A program made the position numbers and the translations under genes. Of a stretch of 37,728 nucleotides of DNA, positions 517 through 5,894 are shown one piece after another. The notes beneath the pieces are model-generated. The model made no database searches, was not told the DNA's origin, and worked only from the letters and a program-made list of their open reading frames with translations. The stretch lies in contig JAKADP010000017.1 in assembly GCA_021820465.1 (NCBI GenBank), forward strand, positions 1 through 37,728. The letters are read 5' to 3'. This DNA comes from Bacillota bacterium. GTDB taxonomy: Bacteria; Bacillota; Sulfobacillia; Sulfobacillales; JAIMBI01. The first letter of the stretch is position 1, and each line of letters begins with the position of its first letter.

Positions 517-1376
517 GGGCCCCGTCCGTCATGGTGACGGGCGCCAATGGCCTATTGGGCAGCCACCTGGTTCGGCGCGCCGCGATGAGCGGCTACCGGG
601 TGTTTGGGGCGGTGACGACCCCTCAGGACGGTGCGGGCTATGTCCCGTGGCCCCTCGATCCCGAGAGCGGCGTGCCGAAGGGGCCCCCCGAGGAGATGGC
701 GGCGCTCCTGATGGTGGCTGGGCCGTCCTTTGCCGAGGACATGACGGTGGCCGGTCCGCGGCACCTGGAGGCCGTGCGGCGGATGCTGGCCTGGGCTCGC
801 CAGTGGGATGTGCGCCGGGTGCTGTTTGTGAGTGCGGTCGGGGCGGACGGCGACAGCCCATCGCCCCTGCATCGGGTGAAGGCGGAGGCGGAGGCGCTGG
901 TGCGCCAAAGCGGGCTGGACTGGACGATCGTCCGGCCCAGCATGATGTTTGGCAAGGAGAGCGACTTTTTCCGGCGCATGGAGGCGTGGGCGCAGCAGAT
1001 TTTTGCCTTGGTGCCGAAATCCCTCGGGGTGACCCAGCCGGTGTATGTGGGAGACGTGGCCGAAGCCATCCTTCGCCTGATGGTGAGCCCCGGCATGGAG
1101 GGGGCCACCTACGAGGTGCCGGGCCCCCACCCGCTGGGTGTGTACGATATTGTCAAGCACGTAAACGGCGACGCCAGCGTGTGGTCGCCCCGGTGGACCA
1201 TTCGGGTGCCCGAGGCGTGGGGGGAGTCGGGCGTCGTGCAGTGGCCCTGGACGGTTGCCGAGTGGGACTACTTCAGCAGCGAGCCCTACGTGCGCGACGT
1301 CCGCTGGATGTCGGAGCTGGGCATCCTGCCGCGGCCCTTTTCCATGTTCTACGGGCCTCATCCGCATCAGCTGTAG
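513..1376 (+). CDS. NAD(P)-binding atypical SDR, NDUFA9/NmrA-like
   Basis: A Rossmann fold starts at once with TGANGLLGSHL (TGxxGxxG). Later motifs include SAVGAD, a Lys in place of the usual YxxxK, TIVRPSMMFG and QPVYVGDVAEAI, which are typical of the atypical extended SDRs related to the complex I subunit NDUFA9 and to NmrA. These bind NAD(P)H, and many lack classical catalysis. The GTG at 513 is chosen because it overlaps the preceding stop (GTGA) and leaves only six residues before the nucleotide-binding strand. The protein is 287 aa. The C-terminal region (WTIRVP, VQWPWTVAEWDYFSSE) has no recognised domain. It probably serves quinone or respiratory redox chemistry with the ferredoxin-like protein encoded upstream, but the substrate is not known. 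Confidence 0.8.
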   Translation: MRAPSVMVTGANGLLGSHLVRRAAMSGYRVFGAVTTPQDGAGYVPWPLDPESGVPKGPPEEMAALLMVAGPSFAEDMTVAGPRHLEAVRRMLAWARQWDVRRVLFVSAVGADGDSPSPLHRVKAEAEALVRQSGLDWTIVRPSMMFGKESDFFRRMEAWAQQIFALVPKSLGVTQPVYVGDVAEAILRLMVSPGMEGATYEVPGPHPLGVYDIVKHVNGDASVWSPRWTIRVPEAWGESGVVQWPWTVAEWDYFSSEPYVRDVRWMSELGILPRPFSMFYGPHPHQL

Positions 1377-1523: not shown

Positions 1524-2111
1524 ATGGCGAGGCGACCGCCCCGTCGCGCCGGTTGGACCCGGCGGGACTTCTTTAACTGGATGTTGAACGGGGTCATGGG
1601 GCTCATCGCGCTGGTTGTGGCGATTCCGGTGGTGGTGGAGGCACTCACCCCCGTGTTCGCGAAGTCGACGGAGCAGTGGGTGAATCTGGGTTCCGCTACG
1701 AGCCTCCAAAGCGCGTCGATGCAGGCGGGCAGCGCGGGAGTGGGCGGCGTGGCCCGTACGCCGTACAGCTACATTCAGACCGACCACTGGGCGAAGCTCC
1801 CGGCGGCCGACTATGCGTACCTTCGGTATATTGGCGGCGACTGCCCCTTTTACGTGCTGTCCCCCATCTGCACCCATCTGGGTTGCCACGTGAACTGGGT
1901 GCAGAGTGCGAACCAGTTTCACTGTCCCTGCCATGGCAGCGTGTACACCATCGACGGGCTGAACGTGTCAGGCCCTGCCCCCCTGCCGCTGGGGGTATTT
2001 CGGTGGAAGCTTACCGGCGGCGATGTGTACATTGAGTTGGAGTCCACGTTTACCCACGCGCATCAGCGCACGGGGGAGTCGCCTCAGCAGCCCTGCCTGC
2101 GGATCGGCTGA
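1524..2111 (+). CDS. qcrA: Rieske [2Fe-2S] iron-sulfur protein of a cytochrome bc complex
   Basis: This 195-aa protein has a basic N-terminus with a Tat-like TRRDFF followed by one transmembrane anchor (about residues 20-45), then a Rieske domain. Cluster box 1 is CTHLGC and box 2 is CPCHGS, giving ligands C116, H118, C134 and H137, with C121 and C136 for the usual disulfide. It should accept electrons from quinol and pass them to a cytochrome c outside the membrane. The cytochrome b genes it would need lie 23 kb away (25114-26702), so the complex is genetically split. The start has a good GGGAGG ribosome-binding site. Whether this Rieske partners with that cytochrome b is inference. Confidence 0.93.
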   Translation: MARRPPRRAGWTRRDFFNWMLNGVMGLIALVVAIPVVVEALTPVFAKSTEQWVNLGSATSLQSASMQAGSAGVGGVARTPYSYIQTDHWAKLPAADYAYLRYIGGDCPFYVLSPICTHLGCHVNWVQSANQFHCPCHGSVYTIDGLNVSGPAPLPLGVFRWKLTGGDVYIELESTFTHAHQRTGESPQQPCLRIG

Positions 2112-2152
2112 GCGCGGTTGATGGGCGCATTTCCTTCTGTGACCTAATTTTG

Positions 2153-2180
2153 GTCTATGTCCCCCCGGCTCTCATACGGT
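2153..2180 (+). promoter_or_regulatory. Sigma-E-like promoter candidate for spoIVFAB
   Basis: GTCTATG (2153-2159) and CATACGGT (2173-2180), 13 bp apart, match the Bacillus mother-cell sigma-E consensus (GKATATT, CATACAAT) at 5/7 and 6/8 positions. In B. subtilis the spoIVF operon is sigma-E dependent. Transcription would begin near 2187, about 14 bases before the spoIVFA ATG. Confidence 0.5.
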
Positions 2181-2197
2181 GAGAGGCGAGGGGGGAC
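2159..2197 (+). promoter_or_regulatory. Nested hairpin covering the spoIVFA ribosome-binding site
   Basis: GTCCCCCC (2159-2166) pairs with GGGGGGAC (2190-2197), and inside it CTCTCA (2169-2174) pairs with TGAGAG (2180-2185). The right arm is the purine-rich Shine-Dalgarno region of spoIVFA, three bases before its ATG at 2201. In a transcript reading through from the Rieske gene this would block translation. A transcript from the sigma-E-like promoter would start after the left arm and escape. Confidence 0.6.
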
Positions 2198-2200
2198 CCC

Positions 2201-2833
2201 ATGGACAGCCACTCCACGCGCGAGCCGCTGAACCGGCGCGGGCATCACTGGCGCCCATGGCCTGTCCAAGTGCTGGTGGCCGTGCTGCTGCTGGGGGGCG
2301 TGGTGGGCCTGCGGCGGGTGGCCTCAGCCGGCCCTCTGCTTGCGTCCGTGGCCCGAGTGACCGCGGGGTGGACGTGGCCCCCGCCTTCGGCGATCACGGC
2401 GGCGGCCCGCTTTGTGGGGCGGCGCAGCTGGGGCACCGTGGTGGATGTGTGGGAGGCCGCCCTCCCCCCCACGGGCCCTGTCACGCCCGTGCCGGACGGA
2501 CGCGTGGTGGACGCCTACGGGTGGCGCCGGGTGAGGGGTGGCTACCACTTTGACCCGGGGACGGTCATACGCGGTCCCGCCGATGGCCCGGTGCTGGCCA
2601 GCGCCGGCGGCACCGTGGCCCGCGGCGCGCACACCGTGTGGATCGTGGTGTCGCCCGCCCTTCGGGTCGGCTACCGCGGGCTCACCGCCGTGGATGTGCG
2701 GGCTGGCGAGCGGGTCGCGCCGGGCGTGGTGTTGGGCCACAATCCCAGCACGGTCACGGTGCTGGTGTGGAGCCGCGGGTATCCCGTCAACCCGGCGTCG
2801 ACCCGCTACCTGGGATGGCTCGGGAGGCGCTGA
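2201..2833 (+). CDS. spoIVFA: Stage IV sporulation protein FA (SpoIVFA-like)
   Basis: A 210-aa protein with a short basic N-terminus, one transmembrane helix (about residues 24-44) and an external C-terminal domain that looks like a degenerate M23/LytM fold (GPVLASAGGTV, VGYRGLTAVDVRAGERV). In B. subtilis SpoIVFA holds the pro-sigma-K protease SpoIVFB inactive in the outer forespore membrane until a forespore signal arrives. The classical metal ligands of active M23 peptidases are not evident, as expected for a structural regulator. Identification rests on this layout and on spoIVFB directly downstream (1-nt gap). The hairpin and sigma-E-like promoter before it fit mother-cell expression. Confidence 0.8.
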   Translation: MDSHSTREPLNRRGHHWRPWPVQVLVAVLLLGGVVGLRRVASAGPLLASVARVTAGWTWPPPSAITAAARFVGRRSWGTVVDVWEAALPPTGPVTPVPDGRVVDAYGWRRVRGGYHFDPGTVIRGPADGPVLASAGGTVARGAHTVWIVVSPALRVGYRGLTAVDVRAGERVAPGVVLGHNPSTVTVLVWSRGYPVNPASTRYLGWLGRR

Positions 2834-2834
2834 G

Positions 2835-3710
2835 GTGCAGGTGGGCCGGGTCTTGGGCGTGCCGCTGAAGCTGCATCCCAGCCTGCTCGCGCTGATGGCG
2901 GTGTATGTGCTCGCGGGGCAGGGATTCCAGATGGCGCTGGGCTTTTTGGCCGTGCTGGGCCATGAGCTGGCGCACGTGGCGGCCGCGCGGGTGCTGGGGC
3001 TGGACGTGCAAGGGGTGGAGTTGCTGCCTTTTGGCGGTGTAGCGCGCCTGGCGGGCTTGGACAGCGAGGATCCGGCGCGTCAGGTGGTGGTGGCGATGGC
3101 CGGACCGCTGTCGTCTCTGCTGCTGGCGGCGGTGGCGGTCACTGTGCCGGTGGTGTGGCCGGTGAACGGCGCGCTGCTGCACTTCTTTGTCCTGGTCAAT
3201 GTGGGGCTCGCGCTCTTCAACTTGCTTCCCGCGGCTCCTCTCGACGGAGGGCGCCTCTGGCGCGCGCTCCGGGCCACTCGGGTGGGCTATGCGCAGGCGC
3301 GGCACGAGGTGCGCCGGGTCGCGGAGGTGGGGGCTAGCGTGCTCGTGGGCTGGTTCTTCCTGCTTGCCGCCTTTGGGGTGTTTTGGTGGCAGGTGGCGGT
3401 GCTGGGCGTCTTCCTCTGGTGGGCAGCGCATCGGCCTGATGCCGGGGCGGCCTGGCCGGTGCGCGATCTCGCCCTGCGCGCGGCGGCCCTTCAGCGCCAG
3501 AGCGTGTGGCTGGTCGAAGATGTGGCGGTGCGCGAGGACGCGCCGCTGGGGGATGTGCTCGCGGCCATGCGCCCGAAGAAGCTCCATCGGGTGGCCGTGC
3601 TGTCGCCGGGGCAGGAGGTGCTGGGAACCGTGTGGGAGAAGGATCTGCTGGCCACCCTGGCCACGTCTGGGCCCGCGACCCCGGTGCACCAGCTGGTCCG
3701 CCGGTCGTGA
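2835..3710 (+). CDS. spoIVFB: Site-2 protease SpoIVFB (pro-sigma-K processing) with C-terminal CBS domain
   Basis: A membrane-embedded zinc protease of 291 aa. HELAH gives H43, E44 and H47, and NLLPAAPLDGGR gives D137, the same numbering as B. subtilis SpoIVFB, which supports the GTG start at 2835 (GGGAGG seven bases upstream). Several transmembrane helices are followed by a soluble CBS-like domain from about residue 220, including VAVREDAPLGDVLAAM. Its known job is intramembrane cleavage of pro-sigma-K in the mother cell, with activity sensed through the CBS domain. It follows spoIVFA by one base, so the two form an operon. A terminator-like hairpin follows. Confidence 0.92.
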   Translation: MQVGRVLGVPLKLHPSLLALMAVYVLAGQGFQMALGFLAVLGHELAHVAAARVLGLDVQGVELLPFGGVARLAGLDSEDPARQVVVAMAGPLSSLLLAAVAVTVPVVWPVNGALLHFFVLVNVGLALFNLLPAAPLDGGRLWRALRATRVGYAQARHEVRRVAEVGASVLVGWFFLLAAFGVFWWQVAVLGVFLWWAAHRPDAGAAWPVRDLALRAAALQRQSVWLVEDVAVREDAPLGDVLAAMRPKKLHRVAVLSPGQEVLGTVWEKDLLATLATSGPATPVHQLVRRS

Positions 3711-3714
3711 CAGC

Positions 3715-3753
3715 CCCGGCGGGCTTCGCCCCTCGGCTCGCCGGGCGGTTTTT
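3715..3753 (+). terminator. Terminator after spoIVFB
   Basis: CCCGGCGGGC (3715-3724) pairs with GCTCGCCGGG (3736-3745) with one G-U pair, and a TTTTT run ends at 3753. Confidence 0.7.
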
Positions 3754-4022: not shown

Positions 4023-5894
4023 ATGGCGCGGCGTAGACGGCACCGGAGCACGGCTCCGGACGATGGACAGGCGGCCGCGGCACAGGAGGCCATCCCCGGA
4101 AGTCCGGTGGAGCCCAAGAGCCCGGATCGACCCCCGGCTCGGACGGCCGCTAAAACGTTCAAGGAGCTTTTGGTCAGTTTTAGTCCCCGATTTAGTCGCT
4201 TGGCTGTTATCGAAGACGGTCAGCTCGTGGAGTTTTTCATCGACCACGAAGACGAGGAGCACGCGGCCGGCAACATTTACAAGGGCCGCGTGGAAAATGT
4301 CCTCCCGGGCATGCGTGCGGCGTTCGTCAACATTGGGTTGGAGAAGAACGCGTTCCTCTATGTGGACGACGCCATTCTGGAGGCGCCCGACAAGGCCCAT
4401 CCGCGCACCATCCAGGATGTGCTCAAGGTGGGCCAGGAGATTGTGGTCCAGGTGGTCAAGGAGCCGATTGGCACCAAGGGAGCGCGGGTCACCACCCATC
4501 TCTCGCTGCCGGGGCGCTATCTGGTGCTGACGCCGTACTCGGATATTGTGGGAATCTCGCGCCGCGTGACGGACGACAAGGAACGGGACCGCCTGCGGCA
4601 GATTGCGGAGAAGATCCGCATCCGCGGCATGGGGCTCATCGTGCGCACGGTGGCCGAGGGCCAACCCGCCCGCACCTTGCAGCGGGACCTGTCGTACCTG
4701 CGCCGCCTCCTGATGCGGGTGAACAAAAAGGCCAAGAGCGTTAAGGGGCCGGCTCTCCTGCATCATGAGGTGAGCCTGGTGGCCCGCACGATCCGGGATC
4801 ACATGGATGAGTCGGTGGACCGCCTGGTCATCGACGACCCGGTGGCGTTTGAAAAGGCGCGGGAAATGGCAGCGTCGCTGTCGCCGAAGCTCAAGGACCG
4901 CATCGAGTTGTGGACCGACCCCGTCCCGCTGCTGCGCGCCCGCGGTGTGGAGGCCGAGCTGGATCGCTCGCTGAAGCGCCGGGTGTGGCTCAAGTGCGGC
5001 GGCTATCTGGTGATGGACGAGACCGAGGCCCTGACCGTCATCGACGTCAACACGGGCAAAAACGTGGGGACCACCGATCTGGCGGACACGGTCATGGTGA
5101 CCAACCGCGAGGCCGCCGTCGAGATTGCGCGTCAGCTGCGGCTGCGCGACATCAGCGGGATCGTGGTGGTGGACTTCATCGACATGGAGGCCGAGGCTGA
5201 CCAGGCGGAGCTGGTGCGGGTGTTCCAGCAGGCGCTGAAAGCGGACCGGACACGCGTCGCGGTCCTGGGCCTGACGCGCCTAGGGCTCATGGAAGTGACG
5301 CGCAAGAAGGTGCACGAAAGCTTGCTGTCCCAGATGACGCGCCTGTGCCCCACGTGTGAGGGGCGGGCTCGCATCTTGTCGGAGGAGGTGATTGCCGCGC
5401 GGCTGCGCGAGCAGATTGCCGATCGCCTCCGGGAGTCGGCGGCCGAGGCCATCCTGGCGGAGGCAGCCCCTCCGGTGGCCGCCCACCTCATTGGGCCCGG
5501 CGGCAACAACTTAAAGGACCTGGAGCGCGTGACCGGCCGCGCGGTGTTTGTCCGCGGGGCCGCGGACTGCGGCCCTGAGGAACTTCGCATTAAGATGCTG
5601 GGATCGCGCCAGCAGGTGGAGCGAGCGGCGCTGCCCGTCCGCGATGGCGAGCGCATCAAAGTATTGGTGGAGGAGCGGCATGCCAACAACCCCAAGGATG
5701 GCATCGCCCGCATTGAGGGGTATGTGATCGACGTGGAGGGGGCGGGCTCCCTGGTGGGGGAGCGCGTGATGGTGGAAGTCCAGCGGTCGCTGAGGACGTT
5801 TGCCACGGCGCGGGTGGTGTCGGCGAAAGCGCCGGCCAAGCGCGTCGCCGAGACACCTCCATCGCCCGTGGCCGAAAGCGCCTTTCGCACCTGA
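4023..5894 (+). CDS. rng: Ribonuclease E/G family endoribonuclease
   Basis: A 623-aa protein with a basic, low-complexity N-terminus (1-45), an S1 RNA-binding domain (about 80-165, with NIYKGRV and AFVNIG), a 5'-sensor/RNase H-like region and the DNase I-like catalytic core. Metal-binding D341 (DVNTGK) and D384 (VVDFIDME) are 43 residues apart, and the Zn-link CPTC (C442, C445) is 101 residues after the first Asp, both spacings as in E. coli RNase E. The C-terminal extension (about 530-605) resembles a TRAM-like OB domain, including IEGYVIDVEGAG. It cuts single-stranded RNA and processes rRNA and mRNA. In many Firmicutes this gene sits just before rplU; here the two are 21 kb apart. Confidence 0.95.
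   Translation: MARRRRHRSTAPDDGQAAAAQEAIPGSPVEPKSPDRPPARTAAKTFKELLVSFSPRFSRLAVIEDGQLVEFFIDHEDEEHAAGNIYKGRVENVLPGMRAAFVNIGLEKNAFLYVDDAILEAPDKAHPRTIQDVLKVGQEIVVQVVKEPIGTKGARVTTHLSLPGRYLVLTPYSDIVGISRRVTDDKERDRLRQIAEKIRIRGMGLIVRTVAEGQPARTLQRDLSYLRRLLMRVNKKAKSVKGPALLHHEVSLVARTIRDHMDESVDRLVIDDPVAFEKAREMAASLSPKLKDRIELWTDPVPLLRARGVEAELDRSLKRRVWLKCGGYLVMDETEALTVIDVNTGKNVGTTDLADTVMVTNREAAVEIARQLRLRDISGIVVVDFIDMEAEADQAELVRVFQQALKADRTRVAVLGLTRLGLMEVTRKKVHESLLSQMTRLCPTCEGRARILSEEVIAARLREQIADRLRESAAEAILAEAAPPVAAHLIGPGGNNLKDLERVTGRAVFVRGAADCGPEELRIKMLGSRQQVERAALPVRDGERIKVLVEERHANNPKDGIARIEGYVIDVEGAGSLVGERVMVEVQRSLRTFATARVVSAKAPAKRVAETPPSPVAESAFRT

Follow-up and report, generated by a model that had tools for sequence, protein, structure and literature searches.

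The Shine-Dalgarno sequence of a spoIVFA-like gene in a member of the Bacillota is predicted to be buried in a strong hairpin whose left arm lies within the spacer of a sigma-E-type promoter, and such a hairpin is kept in all four genomes of the genus (G000-G003), at -27 to -30 kcal/mol. We favour, with some confidence, the view that this element is a promoter-embedded translational insulator, closed on RNA reading through from the upstream Rieske gene and open on RNA initiated by sigma-E.

The locus and its hairpin

The window (the whole stretch of 37,728 nucleotides that was analysed) belongs to a 2.88-Mb genome, G000, whose near relatives are metagenome-assembled Bacillota. The genes on its + strand encode, in order, an SDR-type NAD-binding protein, a Rieske protein, the SpoIVFA-like and SpoIVFB-like proteins and RNase E/G (Table 1). 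The SpoIVFB-like product matches PDB entry 8vjl (Bacillus subtilis SpoIVFB; E 1e-13). We infer the identity of SpoIVFA, because its naming rests on this adjacency and on a Pfam M23 match of 22.2 bits, under the cut-off of 28.7; a comparison with PDB sequences gave no match at E<=1. Profile matches to sigma-E exceed the cut-off in five of six genomes of the family, G000 included, and SpoIIID is encoded in all six (above the cut-off in G000). In G000, spoIVA is present as two pieces on two contigs, and spoIIIAA was found with a score below its cut-off.

Table 1. Features of the spoIVFA region, with positions in the window
Feature	Position	Strand	Basis or remark
SDR-type NAD-binding protein gene	531-1376	+	
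Rieske iron-sulfur protein gene	1524..2111	+	Pfam PF00355 31.2 bits, cut-off 20.3
Conserved block CCTAATTTTGGTCTA, ending in the -35-like GGTCTA	2143..2157	+	14/15 columns invariant in 4 genus members
-35-like GGTCTA	2152-2157	+	same hexamer before spoIIIAA
Outer stem, 8 bp	2159-2166/2190-2197	+	fold
Left outer arm GTCCCCCC (anti-Shine-Dalgarno), within promoter spacer	2159..2166	+	fold and spacer shuffle
Single extra pair	2167-2187	+	fold
Inner stem-loop (7-bp stem 2169-2175/2179-2185, loop 2176-2178)	2169..2185	+	fold
Sigma-E-type -10 CATACGGT	2173..2180	+	identical octamer before spoIVA in G000, G001 and G003
Predicted sigma-E start region	2187..2190	+	inferred from usual -10 to +1 distance
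Right outer arm GGGGGGAC, holding the Shine-Dalgarno run	2190..2197	+	fold
Shine-Dalgarno GGGGGG, wholly in right arm	2190-2195	+	sequence and fold
spoIVFA ATG	2201	+	
spoIVFA-like gene, membrane protein	2201..2833	+	weak M23/LytM match, adjoins spoIVFB
spoIVFB-like M50 intramembrane protease gene	2835..3710	+	Pfam PF02163 69.8 bits
RNase E/G gene	4023-5894	+	
Left-arm pair, two-sided change	column -7		C-G to T-A in G002
Left-arm pair, two-sided change	column -5		G-C in G000, C-G elsewhere in genus
Left-arm pair, two-sided change	column -2		T-A in G000, C-G elsewhere in genus

The original prediction of an 8-bp outer stem that pairs the Shine-Dalgarno region with upstream sequence was confirmed by folding of positions 2140-2260 (z = -4.5; none of 200 dinucleotide shuffles folded as well). 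The inner stem-loop includes most of the -10 element. A repeated element was ruled out, the 39-nt sequence being single-copy in the genome at up to 3 mismatches, and an Rfam search of the window gave no matches.

The leader (-45 to +3 relative to the start codon) folds at -28.0 kcal/mol in G000. An energy of -28 kcal/mol or better over the same interval was reached at five of 894 gene starts (1.42 Mb of G000; mean -14.6), in a survey whose gene finder missed spoIVFA itself, and among starts with CATA at the hairpin top the spoIVFA element ranks second of 194; it is therefore unusual, not unique, within this single genome. Hairpins at G000 gene starts with other tetramers at the top reach similar energies. 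Taken alone, then, the hairpin amounts to no more than a roughly 1-in-150 event for a gene start of this GC-rich genome.

Conservation of the pairing within the genus

The corresponding leaders fold at -28.1 (G001), -28.0 (G002) and -30.1 kcal/mol (G003), compared with -17.7 and -19.7 kcal/mol in G005 and G006, which represent two other genera of the family, and the distance from GGTCTA to CATA is constant in all four genus genomes. Among these, pairs changed on both sides at three left-arm columns and on one side at two, the partners being taken from each genome's own fold, a choice that favours pairing. When each leader was folded with shuffled spacers of unchanged composition, its own spacer paired better than expected (p = 0.007 in G000, 0.016 in G001, 0.003 in G003 and 0.0002 in G002); these values are not independent, because the four genomes count as a single evolutionary event, within which G000, G001 and G003 are near relatives. 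The 13-pair stem of G002 has a sequence unlike the others, and its left arm reaches -17 to -26 kcal/mol with the right arms of the other genomes versus -27 with its own. In G001 and G003 the left arms are C-rich and accept most G-rich partners; specificity of pairing is therefore clear for G002 only.

It might be argued that, in a GC-rich genome, a promoter spacer rich in C pairs with a G-rich Shine-Dalgarno sequence merely as a by-product of composition, as the five gene starts of similar energy and the near-chance pairing in 34 other genomes (see below) would suggest. We find this improbable, since the shuffles retained composition, and neither the two-sided changes nor the differently built stem of G002 is what such a by-product would leave. 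A genus-wide hairpin with two-sided changes is hard to ascribe to chance, and this comparison weighs more than the fold in one genome.

A sigma-E-type promoter overlapping the hairpin

The original prediction also placed a sigma-E-like promoter across the hairpin, and this part of it gains support from the recurrence of both motifs at other sporulation genes. The hexamer GGTCTA also precedes spoIIIAA in G000, G001, G003, G005 and G006 (GCGTCTA in G002), with a spacer of 16 instead of the 15 found at spoIVFA, while the -10 octamer CATACGGT stands behind TTCATATC upstream of spoIVA in G000, G001 and G003, where TCATATC is followed 14 nt on by the octamer. A -10 of the form CATAnnnT and a suitably spaced -35 are thus present, as a motif match only, with the two elements falling in the left arm and loop region of the hairpin. 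GGTCTA is unlike the -35 of B. subtilis sigma-E promoters.

The pattern GGTCTA-N14-16-CATA has 11 matches in the six genomes, nine of them before spoIVFA or spoIIIAA and the remaining two on G000 contig C149 and G005 contig C38. The reversed pattern, used as a control, has 30, more than the real one; the evidence is therefore where these sites fall, not their number. A search with TTTGGTCTA-N15-CATA, allowing 2 mismatches, returned the four spoIVFA sites as the only exact matches. Across the order, a CATA or CGTA element and a short leader are common upstream of spoIVFA. A conserved coding extension from the upstream ATG at 2157 was rejected, because only in G001 do this codon and the start share a reading frame (the two ATGs are 44 nt apart in G000, 42 in G001 and 41 in G003).

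The block CCTAAATTTGGTCTA (2143-2157), outside the Shine-Dalgarno stem, hardly varies across the genus, including the part that precedes the -35. Its reverse complement resembles the SpoIIID site consensus. The inverted repeat could in principle be a DNA operator, for instance for SpoIIID, a repressor of spoIVFA in B. subtilis: the protein is encoded in all six genomes, and it binds DNA upstream of B. subtilis spoIVFA according to an excerpt of PMC517825. We regard this as highly improbable for the hairpin, whose arms vary in sequence between genomes while their pairing persists, the opposite of what a sequence-specific site would show; the block at 2143-2157 is the better operator candidate.

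Proposed mechanism

In our preferred reading, that of an insulator, an assumed read-through RNA from the Rieske gene would carry both arms and fold, locking the spoIVFA Shine-Dalgarno sequence in a GC-rich stem, and SpoIVFA would therefore not be translated from it. Sigma-E RNA polymerase would start inside the hairpin, giving an RNA whose 5' end falls in the right arm, so that the left arm is missing and the Shine-Dalgarno sequence stays free near that end. The model requires both read-through from the Rieske gene and initiation within about 2186-2191. The usual distance from -10 to +1, as we assume it, would put the start near 2187-2190, and a transcript beginning there would lack the left arm. 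The claim that transcription starts after the left arm is supported insofar as this arm lies upstream of any plausible start of the promoter, the start position itself being deduced from the motifs.

The modelled sigma-E mRNA starts 11-14 nt ahead of the start codon and has the Shine-Dalgarno sequence at its 5' end. On the long transcript this sequence is paired in silico, as in ribosome-binding-site hairpins that silence read-through RNA. The calculated cost of opening it in G000 is 16.6 kcal/mol on the read-through RNA versus 2.6 on the sigma-E RNA (start modelled at 2187); the corresponding values are 23.3 and 5.7 in G001, 12.9 and 2.5 in G002, and 18.9 and 5.4 in G003. These four differences are the largest among 24 genomes. 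On the proposed mechanism the two RNAs would differ in translation, and keeping the protease off in vegetative cells, as the original prediction has it, may be the benefit. Since spoIVFB has its own Shine-Dalgarno-like GGGAGG just 5' of its GTG start, silencing of the protease itself would presumably also need translational coupling.

The start has been placed by motifs, and if the true one lay upstream of the left arm, all spoIVFA messages would contain the hairpin and be constantly damped, in the manner of the small hairpin at the sigG ribosome-binding site of B. subtilis, which lowers expression 2-4-fold (PMC5942855, in excerpt). We judge this quite improbable: the motifs place the start inside the hairpin, and the sigG hairpin, put at -6 to -9 kcal/mol in the same excerpt, is much weaker than a stem of -27 to -30 kcal/mol. 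An RNA thermometer was rejected, for in silico the hairpin is folded and the Shine-Dalgarno sequence still paired at 80 C (G000, G002).

Distribution outside the genus

Sixty-one genomes were searched; a SpoIVFB match was found in 56, and 42 loci were examined. Promoter and start were assigned by eye in 38 of these (G011, G048, G052 and G055 are unassigned), all of which entered the fold and duplex shuffle survey, while the swap test covered the 24 genomes with leaders of <=31 nt. The structure is retained within the genus, unlike in G005 and G006, where a similar promoter is kept without such a hairpin. The 34 genomes outside the genus have little or no excess pairing: p<0.05 was obtained in two of 34 by fold and in three of 34 by duplex, near chance, with median p of 0.27 and 0.44, respectively. 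In the swap test outside the genus, a genome's own spacer ranks mid-field and swapped spacers pair about as well. Order-wide conservation was rejected; the hairpins of G013, G016, G023, G025, G034, G039 and G057 were convincing by eye, but the shuffle and swap tests disagreed. The hairpin is a genus trait.

In G057, a distant member of the same class, spoIVFA is preceded by an 11-bp hairpin that carries the -10 at its top and has a right arm rich in G. By energy, no outlier is stronger than G057 (fold p 0.028, duplex p 0.19), where the leader is long and the start codon uncertain. At spoIIIAA of G002, GCCCGTCCC in the spacer of the promoter and GGGACGGGC at the gene start are complementary; this is possibly a second case of the same layout, and no such complementarity was seen at spoIIIAA in the other genomes.

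The upstream Rieske gene

By tblastn, a Rieske gene lies directly 5' of spoIVFA in G000-G003 and at no other searched locus. The order SDR-Rieske-spoIVFA is found in G000, G001 and G003, and the stretch fetched from G002 has Rieske-spoIVFA without the SDR gene. In G005 and G006 spoIVFA directly follows the SDR gene, without a Rieske gene, and an SDR gene is near in many members of the order. The genomes with the hairpin are thus exactly those with the Rieske gene upstream (4/4), a coincidence that counts as one event.

This distribution would also fit a Rieske 3'-end element, either a terminator without a U-tract or a barrier to exonucleases, reaching into the spoIVFA leader by chance; the hairpin lies 48-86 nt past the Rieske stop codon, and the terminator scan listed no other terminator-like site between the two genes. 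We nevertheless hold it to be unlikely, as the right arm coincides with the Shine-Dalgarno sequence in four of four genomes, none of them has a T-run after the stem (the outer stem of G000 is followed by CCCATGG), and the scan did not list the hairpin, finding a terminator-like site with a T-run instead 3' of spoIVFB, at 3732-3745. An intrinsic terminator as such was rejected, there being no U-tract after the stem.

Returning to the insulator, we tentatively suggest that a Rieske gene was inserted before spoIVFA and that, with this insertion, an anti-Shine-Dalgarno strand arose from the spacer of the old sigma-E promoter. The promoter itself may so have become a developmental insulator that confines reading of the coding sequence to the mother cell during sporulation. 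If true, the gain and upkeep of an insulator could be traced in living relatives. In G001 and G002 the coding match to the Rieske gene is distributed over different reading frames, which may reflect either assembly or sequencing error or gene decay; with the frame broken, there may not be a working gene at least there.

Other observations in these genomes

Several interruptions of sigK were encountered. In G001 (C105, about 826-2850) the gene is interrupted at AARCIEN, and a large serine recombinase (Pfam Resolvase, Recombinase and zinc ribbon) abuts its N-terminal half; we take this to be a skin-like element, located at the B. subtilis site. The C-terminal half is preceded by foreign sequence in G006 (C37). 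G000 has both a continuous junction that extends as far as the end of a contig and a C-terminal half with foreign sequence (C107:7319-7672; end of C149), as if excised and inserted forms coexisted in the assembly. The gene is intact in G003 and G005. In G002, TTTGGTCGGCCGTCTTCACCCAGACATA recurs 18 times, mostly within 80 bases of contig ends (C4, C5, C12, C17, C23 and others), and probably represents a mobile element present in multiple copies, at which the assembly breaks.

Comparison with known systems

The principle proposed here is already known from phage T4 gene e and I-TevI and has been proposed at sigG, and spoIVFA is probably a new case of it; among the titles and abstracts retrieved from the open-access literature, no report of a hairpin of this type at spoIVFA was recognised. 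Our best reading is that the spoIVFA hairpin would work like these, as a putative member in function.

The comparison with T4 gene e made in the original prediction is apt. As described in an excerpt of PMC3014915, the longer early RNA of this gene is closed and yields 100-fold less lysozyme, and the late promoters of e, soc and 49 are located in the DNA that encodes the stem's 5' strand, which leaves late RNA open. As in gene e, the long RNA hides the ribosome-binding site (here in silico) and RNA from the gene's own promoter would be open; unlike gene e, spoIVFA is a cellular sporulation gene with a sigma-E-type instead of a T4 late promoter. For I-TevI, I-TevII, I-TevIII, segB and Aeh1 mobE, an excerpt of PMC2988022 states that RNA from the late promoter cannot form the ribosome-binding-site hairpin. 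Here too a gene is embedded behind another and RNA from its own promoter would lack the hairpin, but those genes are phage homing endonucleases, whereas at our locus the Rieske gene would be the insertion and the downstream gene the older resident.

The nearest precedent, which the original prediction does not name, is sigG; it shares with spoIVFA the sporulation context and, on our reading, the blocking of read-through RNA from upstream and a hairpin-free RNA from the gene's own promoter. According to an excerpt of PMC5942855 (its reference 52 being Masuda 1988), a large hairpin in B. subtilis is proposed to prevent translation of RNA that reads through from PspoIIG, and transcripts from PsigG are unable to form it. 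It differs in the gene concerned and in its stem of 20+ bp, and two-sided conservation is seen at spoIVFA. The B. subtilis spoIVFA-spoIVFB pair is under sigma-E (PMC517825, in excerpt), and the operon described here resembles it in gene pair and, by motif, in promoter type. If our reading is correct, the principle of a closed long RNA and an open short one, well established in phage T4 and proposed at sigG, would extend to the pro-sigma-K protease operon of uncultured Bacillota, with the appearance of the hairpin linked to insertion of an upstream gene, and promoter spacers that pair with a downstream Shine-Dalgarno sequence would merit a general search.
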